Assembly (NCBI GenBank): GCA_036245525.1
Contig: BTPG01000003.1
Coordinates: 211,919,945 to 211,983,944 of the forward strand
DNA from: Semisulcospira habei
Taxonomy: Eukaryota > Mollusca > Gastropoda > Semisulcospiridae
Reading direction: 5' to 3'
Length of the DNA: 64,000 nt
In this document: positions 1 to 60,982 of the stretch, piece after piece
How positions within the stretch are numbered: position 1 is the first letter of the stretch
Layout: each line of letters begins with the position of its first letter
Made by a program: the position numbers and the translations under genes
The notes under the pieces: generated by a model
What the model saw: the letters and a program-made list of their open reading frames with translations, nothing else
Databases searched by the model: none
Told to the model about the DNA's origin: nothing

Positions 1-211
1 TTCAGCCATGACGCACTACAGCAGGAGATGGATCGACCATGATAATTCAAGGGTAGTACCAGATTAGCTTGGCGCCAACAGGCGCCAAGCTAATCCGGCA
101 CTACCCTTGAATTATCATCCAGTGGTCGACCCATCTCCTGCAACAGGTGCATAGTCGTTAGATGACGCCTCCAAAATTTGGAAAATACTTGCGTCGGGCT
201 GAATGAGTTAA
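1..211. mobile_element. Family A TTAA hairpin element, cut by window edge
   Basis: Near-perfect palindrome whose arms carry TTCAAGGGTAGTGCCAGATT-like sequence meeting at TTGGCGCC. The right end reads GGGCTGAATGAG then TTAA (208-211). The left terminus (expected TTAACCCA) lies just outside the window, since base 1 begins TTCAGCC. There is no coding capacity. The TTAA plus inverted CCC/GGG ends suggest a piggyBac-type MITE. Confidence 0.8.
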
Positions 212-799
212 TAGAAGTAATGAGACAAAATTAATCAATATAGCGCACAGAACCTGCTAAGAAAAAAGGTCAACGTTGTATTGTGATGTTACAAAGATGC
301 CTGTTCAGCAGGTTTAGTTTAAAACTTTCGAAACTAATGCTTCCCTATCACACATTTTAGCGTTGTCTTTGGAGACTGCATGCACACAGCACGAGGTGAG
401 TCGACTGTGCTGAAGTGGGAAGGCCGGCGCCAAGCTAATCTTACACTACCCTTGAATTATCTTGGCCAATCCATTCCCACTTTGACGCTTTGAGGCCGTC
501 GACGGTAAATGTAAAAAAGGATAACAAAAACAAATAAACACCTCAAGGCATCTTTTCCAGATTTACATCATTAGTGTAAAATTGCCGCTACATCTGAACT
601 GCCATGGCCTATTCATTTTCTACTATGGCTTATCCAAAGTTGATGCGTTTAAAGCGGTTCAGTGCATCTTTTTATGATTTACATCTTTCGTGCAGAATTG
701 CGTCTTTGAATGCGTCTTTGAAGTCCAAAGAGTAGCGCCGGAGTAGCTCAACGTCTTCCCAGACGCCAAGCTGTTCTGGTAATGTCCTTAAACTTTCGT
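212..799. other. Non-coding stretch with one family A arm
   Basis: No exon or gene is visible. A single arm of the family A hairpin (GGCGCCAAGCTAATC onward) lies at about 424-482, a broken relic. The rest is unassigned AT-rich DNA. Confidence 0.5.
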
Positions 800-807
800 T
801 GCCGATC

Positions 808-1443
808 GATCTCTCTCTCTTCGCCGGTGAATGTTTTATCGAAGAAAACAGTCTAGGGCGATCTCTCTTTTCGCCGGTGAATGTTTTATAGAAGAAAACA
901 GTTTATGGCGATCTCTCTCTTCGCCGGTAAATGTTTTATGGAAGAAAACAGTCTAGGGCGATCTCTCTCTCTCTTCGCCGGTAAATGTTTTATAGAAGAA
1001 AACAGTCTAGGGCGATCTCTCTCTTCGCCGGTGAATGTTTTCTAGAAGAAAACGGTCTAGGGCGATCTCTCTCTTCGCCGGTGAATGTTTTCTAGAAGAA
1101 AACAGTCTAGGGCGATCTCTCTCTCTCTCTCTCTCTCTCTCTCTCTCTCTCTCTCTCTCTCTCTCTCTCTCTCTCTCTCTCTCTCTCTCTCTCTCTCTCT
1201 CTCTTCGCTGGTGAATGTTTTCTAGAAGAAAACAGTCTAGGGCGATCTCTTTTTTTTTTTCAGTTTATTTTTTCATGTTTCGATTTATTGTGTTTCTCTT
1301 ACTCTTTGCTATTAATGTTTCTTTTCTAACAGGACAGTTTGTAAGAGAGGCGTTTCGCCTAAAACTTTATCCTGTCAATAAAACGTTTCATCATCATCAT
1401 CTCTCTTCGCCGGTGAATGTTTTCTAGAAGAAAAAAGTCTGGG
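808..1443. repeat. Minisatellite with internal (CT)n expansion
   Basis: About eight units share CTCTTCGCCGGTGAATG, then TTTT and AGAAGAAAACAGTCTAGGG. Each unit contains a short CT run. In one unit (about 1118-1203) the CT run has grown to roughly 40 dinucleotides, so a microsatellite has expanded inside a minisatellite. Confidence 0.85.
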
Positions 1444-1454
1444 GTAGTGTTTTC

Positions 1455-1836
1455 TAACCCTTTTAGCCCCACGGGCGCTTTCCCAAATGTTGGAAGTGTT
1501 ACTGAACTACTATGTACCAGTTGCAGGAGGTGGATTGACCATGATGATTCAAACAACGTTTAGGGCTTAACGTCTTTTGTCCATCACGAAGGTGATTTCA
1601 AAGACGGGGCACCGAAAAGAGGTCTGTACAAATTTTGACGCCAGCTGGGTTCGAACCACGACCTTTCGGACGAGAGTCGAACGCTCTACCACCGAGCCAC
1701 CCAGCTCCCTCATATAATTCAATGGTAGTGCTAGATTAGCTTGGCGCCTTCAGGCGCCAAGCTAATCTGGCACTGCCCATGAAATACCATGGTCAGTCAA
1801 TCTCCTGCTGTAGGGACTCGGGGCTAAATGGGTTAA
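1455..1836. mobile_element. Family A element (reverse orientation) with nested SINE
   Basis: The left end is CTAACCCTTTTAGCCCC (a mutated TTAA) and the right end GGGGCTAAATGGG-TTAA. The core palindrome is split by a SINE at 1553-1710. Relative to the copy at position 1 the element is inverted. Confidence 0.75.
1553..1710 (-). mobile_element. tRNA-derived SINE (SINE-2), minus strand
   Basis: On the minus strand it begins with a tRNA-like head: A box TGGCTCGGTGGTAGAGC and B box GGTTCGAAC. The body matches the plus-strand copy at 46315-46462, including a shared GGACAAAAGA..GTTAAGCCCTAA segment. Imperfect flanking repeats, CATGATGATTCAA (1540-1552) and CATATAATTCAA (1711-1722), look like a target-site duplication inside the family A arm. 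Confidence 0.75.
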
Positions 1837-1875
1837 TTCACATCCGAACCGCCTAATTGCGTCTTTAGACAAACT

Positions 1876-1930
1876 GATATGGCACTACCAATGAACTATC
1901 ATAGTCGATCCATCTCTTTCCCTGAAGTAC
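1876..1930. repeat. Family A single-arm relic
   Basis: GGCACTACCAATGAACTATCAT followed by a GTCGATCCATCTC-like sequence is one degraded arm of the family A hairpin. No partner arm is nearby. Confidence 0.5.
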
Positions 1931-2058
1931 GCGGAATGTGTTGTAATTTTTAAACAATAGTAAAGTAAAATATCTAAGATTCATTTTCTTAATTCTCATC
2001 ATGGCCACAGGACTGCGTTTGCAGCAATGCCGATGTCACACTACCCTGAATGTCGTAT

Positions 2059-2139
2059 TTAACTCATTGGAAACGCGCCGTATACGGATGCGCGGCGAAT
2101 CGCCGCGCATCCGTATACGGCACCTCTCTAATGAGTTAA
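2059..2139. mobile_element. Family I TTAA hairpin
   Basis: An 81-bp near-perfect palindrome: TTAACTCATTGGAAACG on the left, CGCCGTATACGGATGCGCGGCG arms in the middle, and AATGAG-TTAA on the right. Related copies lie at 23074-23132 and 47695-47775. It has no coding content. Confidence 0.8.
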
Positions 2140-2213
2140 AAAAAAATTTAGGGCATGGTTTCTTAATTATTCACATCAGGACAGCCTTACTGTGTCTCAA
2201 GCAATGTTGATCT

Positions 2214-59172: not shown

Positions 59173-59280
59173 GCAAGAGTGATAGATGCTCACGAACCCA
59201 CGCGACTGCGGGGGCTCATGAGGATCTATACCTCTTGCAGCTTGATGGTGTTCAGTTTTTCTCGGCATTGAACGGGTTAA
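59173..59280. mobile_element. Family B hairpin with right TTAA end
   Basis: Left arm GCAAGAGTGATAGATGCTCA, diverged; right arm TGAGGATCTATACCTCTTGC. The right end is GGCATTGAACGGG-TTAA at 59277-59280. Confidence 0.78.
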
Positions 59281-59491
59281 CTCATTCTACCCCAGCACCG
59301 AAATCCCCCAAATGTTGCCGTTGTTCTCTGAAGACTGCATTGCAGCGCAGTACACAGATCGACCATGATAGTTCAAGGGTGATGCCAGAATAGCTTGGCG
59401 CCCGTAGGCGCCAAGCTATTCTGGCATCACCCTTGAACTATCATGGTCGATCCTTATCTTGCTGTGGTGTGTCTGGGGTAGAATGAGTTAA
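59277..59491. mobile_element. Complete family G TTAA element with perfect arms
   Basis: TTAACTCATTCTACCCC and GGGGTAGAATGAG-TTAA are exact inverted repeats. The core arms (46 bp each) are perfect, with GATGCC/GGCATC. It shares its left TTAA with the adjoining family B element. Confidence 0.92.
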
Positions 59492-59582
59492 AGCTTTTTT
59501 TCCTCTCCCATAAGTTTGTTGCTCTATGCATGTAAAAAGTGTCAATGTCGGTAAAACTGAGGCCGAGTTAGATACACACGGA

Positions 59583-59729
59583 TTAACCCATTTACTTCAC
59601 GGCCGCATTTTCAACATTTTGGAGTTGACTATGCACCAGTTGCGGGAGATGGATCGACCATGACAATTGAATTCAATTGTCATGGTCGATCCATCTCCTG
59701 TTGTAGCGCTTCGGAGCTAAATGGGTTAA
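59583..59729. mobile_element. Shortened family A element, reverse orientation
   Basis: TTAACCCATTTACTTCACGG and CGGAGCTAAATGGG-TTAA at the ends. The inner arms are deleted symmetrically, leaving CCATGACAATTGAATTCAATTGTCATGG, which is still a perfect palindrome. Confidence 0.85.
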
Positions 59730-59883
59730 GCAGCTACATGACATATCGATTTCTTAGATCCAATCTCAAATAAACAGACAGACGCAGCACGTCTTTGTTC
59801 TTGACCTAGGTCAGCGTGCCTAGTCAGAGCTCTGTCCAGGGCACAGGCACATGATGATCGTTGCGTAACCGACTACGCAATGA

Positions 59884-59972
59884 ACCCAGTGGGCGAATAT
59901 CCTCGGGCCGACGGCGGCAGTAGTTGGCCCGCGCACGGCTGACTGGGGGTCTTCGGCAAAAGTGAACGCAGA
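59884..59972. repeat. Degraded family D hairpin
   Basis: CCCAGTGGGCGAATATCCTC then GGGCCGACGGCGGCAGT is a left D arm; the right arm is mostly replaced by GACTGGGGGTCTTCGGCAAAAG. Confidence 0.55.
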
Positions 59973-60129
59973 CAGGTCCATGCCTCGAGCAAGTTCAACA
60001 TGATATTTGACTTCAATGCGATCTACTTTCAATGCGCGCTTCGCACACTCCTCCGCTTCGTAATCGGATTAGCTGGCGGAGTTGCGTGCATAGCCAAGCT
60101 GCAGGTGATTGGCTGTCGCGTTTCAAATT

Positions 60130-60405
60130 GAAAGAAGTACTTAACGGAGAAAGAAACATTCTTAGAACAGACAGTTCCAACACAATTTATTAAATGCAGT
60201 TGCCACATTCCTTCTTCGATAAATGATGACAAGTAGCGACTGATCTCTATCTTTGTTTGTTTGTCTGTTTTGAGAAATGGTATTTACCCGAAATATGAAT
60301 AAATTGTGTTGTGTTGTAAGTGTCTTTTCTAACCGTGTTTCTTTCTCCGTTGGGTACTTCTTTGCATTTTACACGCTTGGCAGTCACCTTTTTGGTCTGG
60401 ATTTC
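60130..60405. mobile_element. Family N inverted-repeat element
   Basis: ACGGAGAAAGAAACATTCTT..CAACACAATTTATTAAATG and AATAAATTGTGTTG..AACCGTGTTTCTTTCTCCGT. The left arm keeps the intact TTATTAA, the site that a family A element occupies in the 45-kb copy. Confidence 0.82.
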
Positions 60406-60789
60406 AAATTGAAAGAGCATTGAAAGAAAATATGACCCGTTCTATTTGGGCTAAAATTCAACTCTTGGAGCGGCGTAAGCATCATTTCAATCCCCGTCTG
60501 CGGGCACCTTTACACCGAAGACGGATTCTGTTCTCGATTACGCAACGATCATCGCGTGCATGTCGGCGAGGTGACGCAATACTCGGCCGTAACCTTTATC
60601 TCTATAACGCTACACGGTAAGCAATACGCCCAGGGGACTAACGTCACCTTGAGGTGGCTGTGTGCGAGCATTCTAACGCTGATGTCGGCTGCATGATCTT
60701 TGTGCAGTAGGCTACCGTACTCATCCAGATTAACGCAACAATTTAACCCCCGCAACTGCTACTAACAATACCTTTCGTACCCGCGTACC

Positions 60790-60982
60790 TTAACTACTTC
60801 ACTGCTGAGAAAATCTGAACGCTACCCAAATGCAAGAGGCATAGATCCTCATGAGCCCCCGCTGTCGCGGGGGCTCATGAGGATCTATGCCTCTTGCATA
60901 ATCCACGCTCCTTTGACGTCTTGGGATTTTTGAAGTTGAAATTAGAAGGTTTTCAAAAACACAGTCAGCGTCCAATGTTTAA
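60790..60982. mobile_element. Complete family B TTAA element
   Basis: TTAACTACTTCACTGCTGAG on the left, perfect core arms at 60832-60897, and TCCAATGT-TTAA on the right. Confidence 0.83.

Follow-up and report, generated by a model that had tools for sequence, protein, structure and literature searches.

The stretch analysed here, referred to as the window, comprises 64,000 nt of contig BTPG01000003.1 (positions 211,919,945-211,983,944), taken from a 1.98 Gb assembly of 1,983,391,078 bases in 507 contigs. It is populated by palindromes, many of which lie within short TTAA-bordered elements that are probably nonautonomous miniature inverted-repeat transposable elements (MITEs) of piggyBac type. 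Self-comparison, in which palindromes were counted from 51 nt upwards and an AT run at 8229-8335 was excluded, returned 61 palindromes, or 60 once overlaps were removed. Under family letters partly assigned by the analyst, these 60 comprised B (19), A (17), C (5), F (4), L (3) and G (2), together with two further pairs and six singletons. An independent sample of the same genome (20 stretches of 10 kb, hence 200 kb, with 2,094 N) contained 90 palindromes, corresponding to 28.8 per 64 kb, and an order-1 shuffle of this sample contained none. The closest named proteins to the open reading frame at 61888-63918 come from Nucella lapillus and Pomacea canaliculata (approximately 60% identity each), and from the protein matches of this one frame we infer a caenogastropod-like snail as the host.

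Hairpins of the A, B, G and L core families in the window lie within TTAA-bounded elements of 59-260 bp that start inward with C[CT]C. B1 elements occur on the plus strand at 1-211 (truncated at the window start; TTAA at 208-211 as right border), 48886-49089 (TTAA/TTCA borders; hairpin 48914-49019) and 50395-50654 (TTAA at both ends; hairpin 50423-50583), with a B1-type copy at 51173-51380 (plus strand; ATGA/TTAA borders; hairpin 51203-51314). A further B1 element at 45197-45386 (plus strand; GTAA/TTAA borders) sits in the middle of a palindrome whose arms span 45137-45196 and 45386-45445. B2 elements with TTAA at both ends are found at 54187-54400 (plus strand; 214 bp, nested in an older B-like element) and 59277-59491 (minus strand; 215 bp; hairpin 59357-59452). 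Three B-type elements of 214 bp, all on the minus strand with TTAA at both ends, occupy 15693-15906 (hairpin 15762-15879), 17499-17712 (hairpin 17570-17682) and 35036-35249 (hairpin 35108-35219), while a short B-type copy with a deleted core lies at 59583-59729 (minus strand; TTAA at both ends; hairpin 59645-59698, 100% paired). The B-type element at 1454-1836 (minus strand; CTAA/TTAA borders; hairpin 1715-1786) is interrupted by about 190 bp containing a tRNA-Glu-like sequence (1636-1708), perhaps a short interspersed nuclear element.

Family A is represented by elements with TTAA at both ends at 4004-4220 (plus strand; hairpin 4046-4111), 22362-22583 (minus strand; hairpin 22476-22539) and 60790-60982 (plus strand; hairpin 60830-60899). 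A left part at 26142-26250 (plus strand) has its TTAA (26142-26145) in common with the end of another A element. Three A hairpins on the minus strand lie at 43023-43127 (TTAACTC end at 43127), 49226-49334 (TTAA end at 49334) and 59173-59280 (TTAACCC end, with TTAA 59277-59280 common to the next B2 element). L elements, to which no strand can be given, are palindromes running from TTAA to TTAA at 2059-2139 and 23074-23132 (59 bp), the one at 47695-47775 having TTGA/TTAA borders. The likewise strandless G palindromes at 20114-20205 (92 bp) and 34701-34792 also run from TTAA to TTAA, and an element with G-type ends at 56013-56174 (no strand; TTAA on both sides) encloses an F-like palindrome at 56077-56152. 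At 26142-26145, 35616-35619 and 59277-59280, one TTAA is flanked on either side by outward-pointing C[CT]C or CAC, and neighbours appear to share it. The five elements quoted as examples by the original prediction, namely those beginning at 4004, 20114, 22362, 54187 and 59277, do start and end with TTAA.

A strict border test looked for TTAAC[CT]C flanking each palindrome within 160 bp, with random placements as the null. Among the 60 window palindromes, 10 had the motif on both sides, 16 on one side and 34 on neither, against 1.4%, 8.9% and 89.7%, respectively, for random placements; the 90 sample palindromes gave 11, 22 and 57. The earlier count of at least twenty palindromes running from TTAA to TTAA thus stands only when a single border suffices (26/60), since both borders are intact in just 10/60. 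The trinucleotides following TTAA were also enriched relative to those following other xTAA/TxAA words, both in the window (CCC, 35/602 versus 35/3702; CTC, 20/602 versus 63/3702) and in the sample (CCC, 42/1950 versus 114/11500; CTC, 42/1950 versus 108/11500), where GGG and GAG were depleted after TTAA. TTAA is a common word (0.0048 per base), which is what an origin of the borders by chance or base composition would draw upon. This explanation was nevertheless rejected through the random-placement, shuffled and reversed-pattern controls, being refuted by the border test, the enrichment and the genome counts given below, and its probability is practically nil.

The element ends were then compared directly across window and sample (264 kb), scoring an exact TTAA immediately beyond the end. 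It was present at 23/33 left and 11/17 right ends of B1 and at 14/15 left and 8/8 right ends of B2, these two sets overlapping because the queries are related and one of the 33 B1 left ends being an artefact of the window start. The corresponding figures were 13/25 for G, 11/12 for L and 9/21 for the left end of A. With at most one mismatch allowed, they rose to 29/33 and 16/17 for B1 and 22/25, 12/12 and 15/21 for G, L and A left, with 3/8 for A right, and stayed at 14/15 and 8/8 for B2. The ends of B1, B2, G and L are therefore TTAA, or TTAA changed by one base, in nearly all copies that reach the end. Evidence for a TTAA target site duplication is accordingly strong for B1, B2, L and G and weak for A, and the elements have a short terminal inverted repeat starting with CCC or CYC. 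The proposal that several hairpin families share TTAA and CCC/CTC borders holds for B, G and L and more weakly for A; it fails for C and F, with strict-test borders on 0/5 C palindromes and 1/7 F palindromes (one border only) in window and sample, and for the hairpin pair at 7286 and 49406, where no such borders were seen by eye.

Genome-wide searches indicated how numerous these elements are. The exact B1 end TTAACCCATTCAGCCC occurred 26,657 times and the exact B2 end TTAACTCATTCTACCCC 40,844 times, with no match to either reversed control. Complete elements numbered 2,206 for B1 (both ends exact) and 537 for G (each matched on both strands), again with none for the reversed patterns. Of the 100 B2 ends listed, 99 were examined for pairing; they gave 24 inward-facing pairs within 300 bp, 15 of which measured exactly 214 bp. 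The elements are thus short, non-coding, present in many copies and uniform in length, as MITEs are. No similar DNA was found in plasmids; viral contigs yielded four matches to one 16-base pattern and none to another.

Empty sites were sought by joining the flanks of 48 of the 49 elements with TTAA at both ends in the loci examined and searching for paralogues. A spanning match was obtained for 10/48 and no match for the other 38. Two insertions into other repeats gave the clearest results: at locus L036 (8238-8451) a single TTAA was found in 8/12 empty paralogues and TTAG in 4/12, and at L012 (2515-2734) TTAA was found in 5/6 and TAAA in 1/6. The lone paralogue of L026 has TAAA at the site. 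Four loci yielded no usable empty site, the alignment being gapped (L046), out of register (L045) or a match of the locus to itself (L021, L044). The remaining three insertions are considered below.

One empty site is of a different kind. In its empty form, the palindrome centre that hosts the B1 element at 45197-45386, ACACAATTTATTAATAAATTGTGT, occurs in nine exact copies in the genome. Palindrome centres as a general target were considered and rejected: when the 10-nt flanks of the 48 joined sites were compared with their own complement, between 0 and 7 positions agreed (1-4 in most cases), a score for which no null was computed, and the 45197 insertion is accordingly treated as a single case. 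The host is a member of another family of long palindromes, which reach 299 bp and contain TTAA in their arms and which occur in the window at 45137-45445 and 60118-60376 and at locus L037 (4303-4597 and 4862-5160); in the copy at 45137 the B1 element replaces the inner part.

A genome search with PF13843 revealed abundant piggyBac transposases: 116 of 1058 candidates were scored and all 116 exceeded the cut-off (best 9.7e-93), most lying in open frames of approximately 430-690 residues and some with a stop. The genome thus encodes autonomous piggyBac transposases. Ten loci, which form five groups of two, were read. In four groups the elements span 2.85-3.33 kb, both ends show TTAA/C[CT]C, and identity between copies is 97.7-99.8%; for the fifth, PB3, one end was found, also with TTAA/C[CT]C. 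PB1 and PB2 may be one family, having ends in common. The autonomous-group end TTAACCCATATAAGCCTG occurs 54 times in the genome; inspected by eye, most occurrences form inward pairs with a spacing of about 2.9-3.7 kb and none lie closer, so this group has no swarm of short exact-ended derivatives. Six autonomous loci (L055-L058 and L063-L064) have a palindrome resembling GTCCCATTTTTGGGAC in subterminal position, with inverted internal copies close to each end, recalling the palindromic internal repeats of piggyBac.

The MITE ends and the autonomous ends are of the same class, and the superfamily assignment, judged from sequence, is well supported. The enrichment in window and sample, the element-end test and the empty sites all bear out the piggyBac-type TTAA target and C[CT]C ends originally proposed, in a genome rich in piggyBac transposases whose autonomous copies have such ends as well. 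Kolobok MITEs are the obvious competitor, since the duplication of TTAA is common to both superfamilies and Kolobok is present in molluscs; Kolobok termini, however, are RR...YY according to PMC9587614, whereas those found here are C[CT]C...G[AG]G, with GGG and GAG depleted after TTAA. A Kolobok origin was rejected on this end composition, Kolobok transposases not having been searched for, and is considered very improbable.

Inside the borders, the families are less independent than had been supposed. Interiors said to differ completely between families do not do so for B1 and B2, which align end to end and are relatives over their full length. In seven B2-type elements compared with the B1 consensus, the palindrome arms are 543/614 identical (0.884), the terminal repeats 90/112 (0.804) and 85/110 (0.773), and the subterminal segments 87/128 (0.68) and 250/346 (0.723); between B1 and B2 the interior is therefore conserved above the terminal repeats. 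Since the two align end to end, palindrome and ends descend together, which argues against A and B being composites in which a hairpin element of separate origin inserted into a TTAA element or was captured by one. Such an origin could account for the C and F hairpins lying outside TTAA borders, for the F-like palindrome within the G-type element at 56013-56174 and for B cores that lack recognisable borders, but missing borders can equally reflect decay, and the composite origin is judged quite unlikely.

Arm covariation was assessed in 25 hairpins, two having been dropped from a set of 27 that was selected to retain the GGCGCC-4-GGCGCC tip intact and to match at 26 or more of 36 arm bases. 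Nine of 34 arm pairs were changed on both sides, with 41 such cells against 15.1 in shuffles, a count reached in 0/500 shuffles, although related sequences can exceed shuffles without any structure. In one B2 copy, departures from the B1 consensus occupy four left-arm and five right-arm positions, four being shared (P 3.7e-5). Some paired changes occur in single copies, and transversions are found at pairs 7/66, 22/51 and 23/50. The two arms of a copy are on average closer to each other than to those of other copies (0.086 versus 0.155 in B; 0.117 versus 0.154 in A), and two of four G copies read in both directions have 0 and 1 differences between their arms over 29 sites, against at least 4 from other copies. 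Selection for a hairpin folded in RNA or DNA, serving as a small-RNA precursor or a transposase site, might instead maintain such symmetric changes. Pairing maintained in 97.4% of cells despite many paired changes is in keeping with that possibility, as are wobble-type intermediates (seven U-G at pair 12/61); the paired transversions, by contrast, have no wobble intermediate, and selection on each copy would be implausible for high-copy non-coding elements. Selection in place of arm copying is thus rather unlikely.

The hairpin tip stands out as a site of instability. Among 32 B1 copies, all with both ends, the 16 tip bases were deleted at 0.225 per base, compared with 0.002-0.028 elsewhere, a tip rate that is if anything too low, since 20 of the copies had been fetched from 100 listed and hand-picked toward longer ones. 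The intact GGCGCC-loop-GGCGCC tip was lost in 20/32 copies through deletion or substitution, and tip orientation was TGTC in 9/32 and GACA in 1/32. The G element at 56294-57894 (no strand; GTCA/TTAA borders) is split at its palindrome centre by a 1.5-kb minisatellite in which a 27-bp unit is repeated about 56 times. This unit includes the G centre sequence TCCTGCAGGAAT, and the array looks as if it had grown from the hairpin tip.

Taken together, the elements are probably nonautonomous piggyBac-type MITEs of about 60-260 bp with no coding capacity, built around a palindromic core whose arms are occasionally recopied and whose tip is fragile. A piggyBac-superfamily transposase acting in trans would excise them and reinsert them at TTAA, which is duplicated. 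G and L are palindromic end to end, and A and B carry the palindrome inside asymmetric ends. New subfamilies would be founded by symmetric ancestors, so that the palindrome persists, and now and then one arm would be copied onto the other, most likely through hairpin- or cruciform-templated repair or replication, as the paired changes, some of them transversions, suggest. The hairpin would also render its tip fragile, making it the main deletion site in B1 and the site of the minisatellite in one G copy.

A number of results weigh against this interpretation. Family A, the weakest, keeps its borders poorly, with an exact TTAA at only 1/8 right ends. Three insertions nested in A or B elements have TTAA at the site in no paralogue (0/28 for L041, 0/17 for the window element at 54187-54400 and 0/4 for L053); the paralogues align across the site with a length change of at most one base and have other letters there, so mutation of the host copy must have created the TTAA at these sites. 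The lack of a single TTAA at empty sites had been named as grounds for abandoning the prediction, and on paralogues, the only comparison made, L036 and L012 retain it while these three nested sites do not. The mobiliser is the other difficulty. MITE ends were on none of the five autonomous groups read at the ten loci; beyond C[CT]C, the similarity of MITE and autonomous ends was not significant against C[CT]C-starting controls (6% for the B1 left end, 13-77% for the others); and a genome pattern search found a B1 end joined to PB1- or PB5-like subterminal sequence 0 times. A transposase with matching ends, which the original prediction advised seeking, was therefore found neither in the five groups nor by the hybrid pattern, abundant as transposases are, and the idea of one mobilising source is not borne out, given that the terminal repeats differ between families and none of these groups has MITE ends.

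The arms raise objections of their own. In the covariation set, the number of further pair types did not exceed that in shuffles (125/500). In a nearest-arm test that omitted 2/19 B and 4/17 A hairpins, the own arm was the nearest relative in only 5/17 B and 2/13 A copies; a left-G/right-A difference between the B1 arms was retained in 11/13 readable copies; and in two of the four G copies the own arms were no closer than another copy's (one has 4 differences between its arms but 3 from another copy, and the other is shifted by an indel). Frequent homogenisation of arms within single copies was rejected on the failure of the nearest-arm test in most copies and the persistence of the B1 difference, and for the same reasons only occasional rewriting is claimed. 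Most arm symmetry would thus come down from founders that were already symmetric, with an occasional renewal. A more active role can be imagined, in which the palindrome is a mobility module that accounts for the success of piggyBac-type elements with differing ends in this genome. Re-symmetrised by arm-to-arm copying during transposition or repair, it would be the conserved part that corrects itself, and the ends would diverge to match one transposase or another. If so, hairpins would seed tip minisatellites and TTAA at palindrome centres could serve as landing sites, but we regard this as doubtful.

Several other features share the window with the elements. The family C hairpins (GGTCTGTGATTTTGGACC; 9251-9317, 19724-19793, 39448-39510, 48046-48106 and 61816-61881) have no TTAA borders and unrelated flanks, and family C is a palindromic repeat of another kind. 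A 79-bp tandem array at 41983-42302 has a unit that includes half of a B hairpin. Remnants of a DDE_3 transposase (13637-14062, minus strand) and of a reverse transcriptase (30989-31540, plus strand) are also present. The frame at 43566-44324 (plus strand) matches ALKBH8_N and is presumably the end of a retroelement polyprotein.

As a TTAA-duplicating group with autonomous members in the snail genome, the elements resemble the animal piggyBac superfamily as covered in three sources (PMC10813416, PMC7351741, PMC11707139). End motifs reported in PMC10813416 include CCCAT, CCCTT and CCCTC; none of the four motifs quoted there matches the CTC ends carried by B2 and L, and the window elements differ further in being non-coding. 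Structural studies have described an unpaired target TTAA in the strand-transfer complex of piggyBac and an excision that proceeds via TTAA hairpins (PMC7351741); these data fit the TTAA specificity and leave the long internal palindromes unexplained. Among unassigned MITE-like clusters of Anopheles gambiae, 6/32 are palindromic repeats, but these measure 430-1678 nt and the paper makes no mention of TTAA (PMC3212995).

The closest published likeness is to the CMITEs of the coral Acropora (PMC2872659): small TTAA-flanked piggyBac-type MITEs in several families with differing terminal repeats, whose internal region is better conserved between families than those repeats and one of which arose by insertion at an internal TTAA. 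They are about 100 bp long, and the word palindrome is absent from the paper. In the snail, by contrast, the part conserved inside the elements is a palindrome, nearly perfect, whose arms covary and whose tip is prone to deletion, and the ends number tens of thousands. A literature search found no description of these snail elements, an absence from print judged from search results alone, and searching with the element ends as letter strings returned only papers on other subjects. What is new here is piggyBac-type MITEs with a long conserved palindrome and covarying arms, an unusual variant of a known element type. They constitute a very large set of near-perfect palindromes in thousands of copies, in which arm correction, tip deletion and tip expansion become measurable. 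The coral finding is thereby repeated in a snail: the interior of a MITE can outlast the ends that its transposase should need, and this puzzle is made testable.

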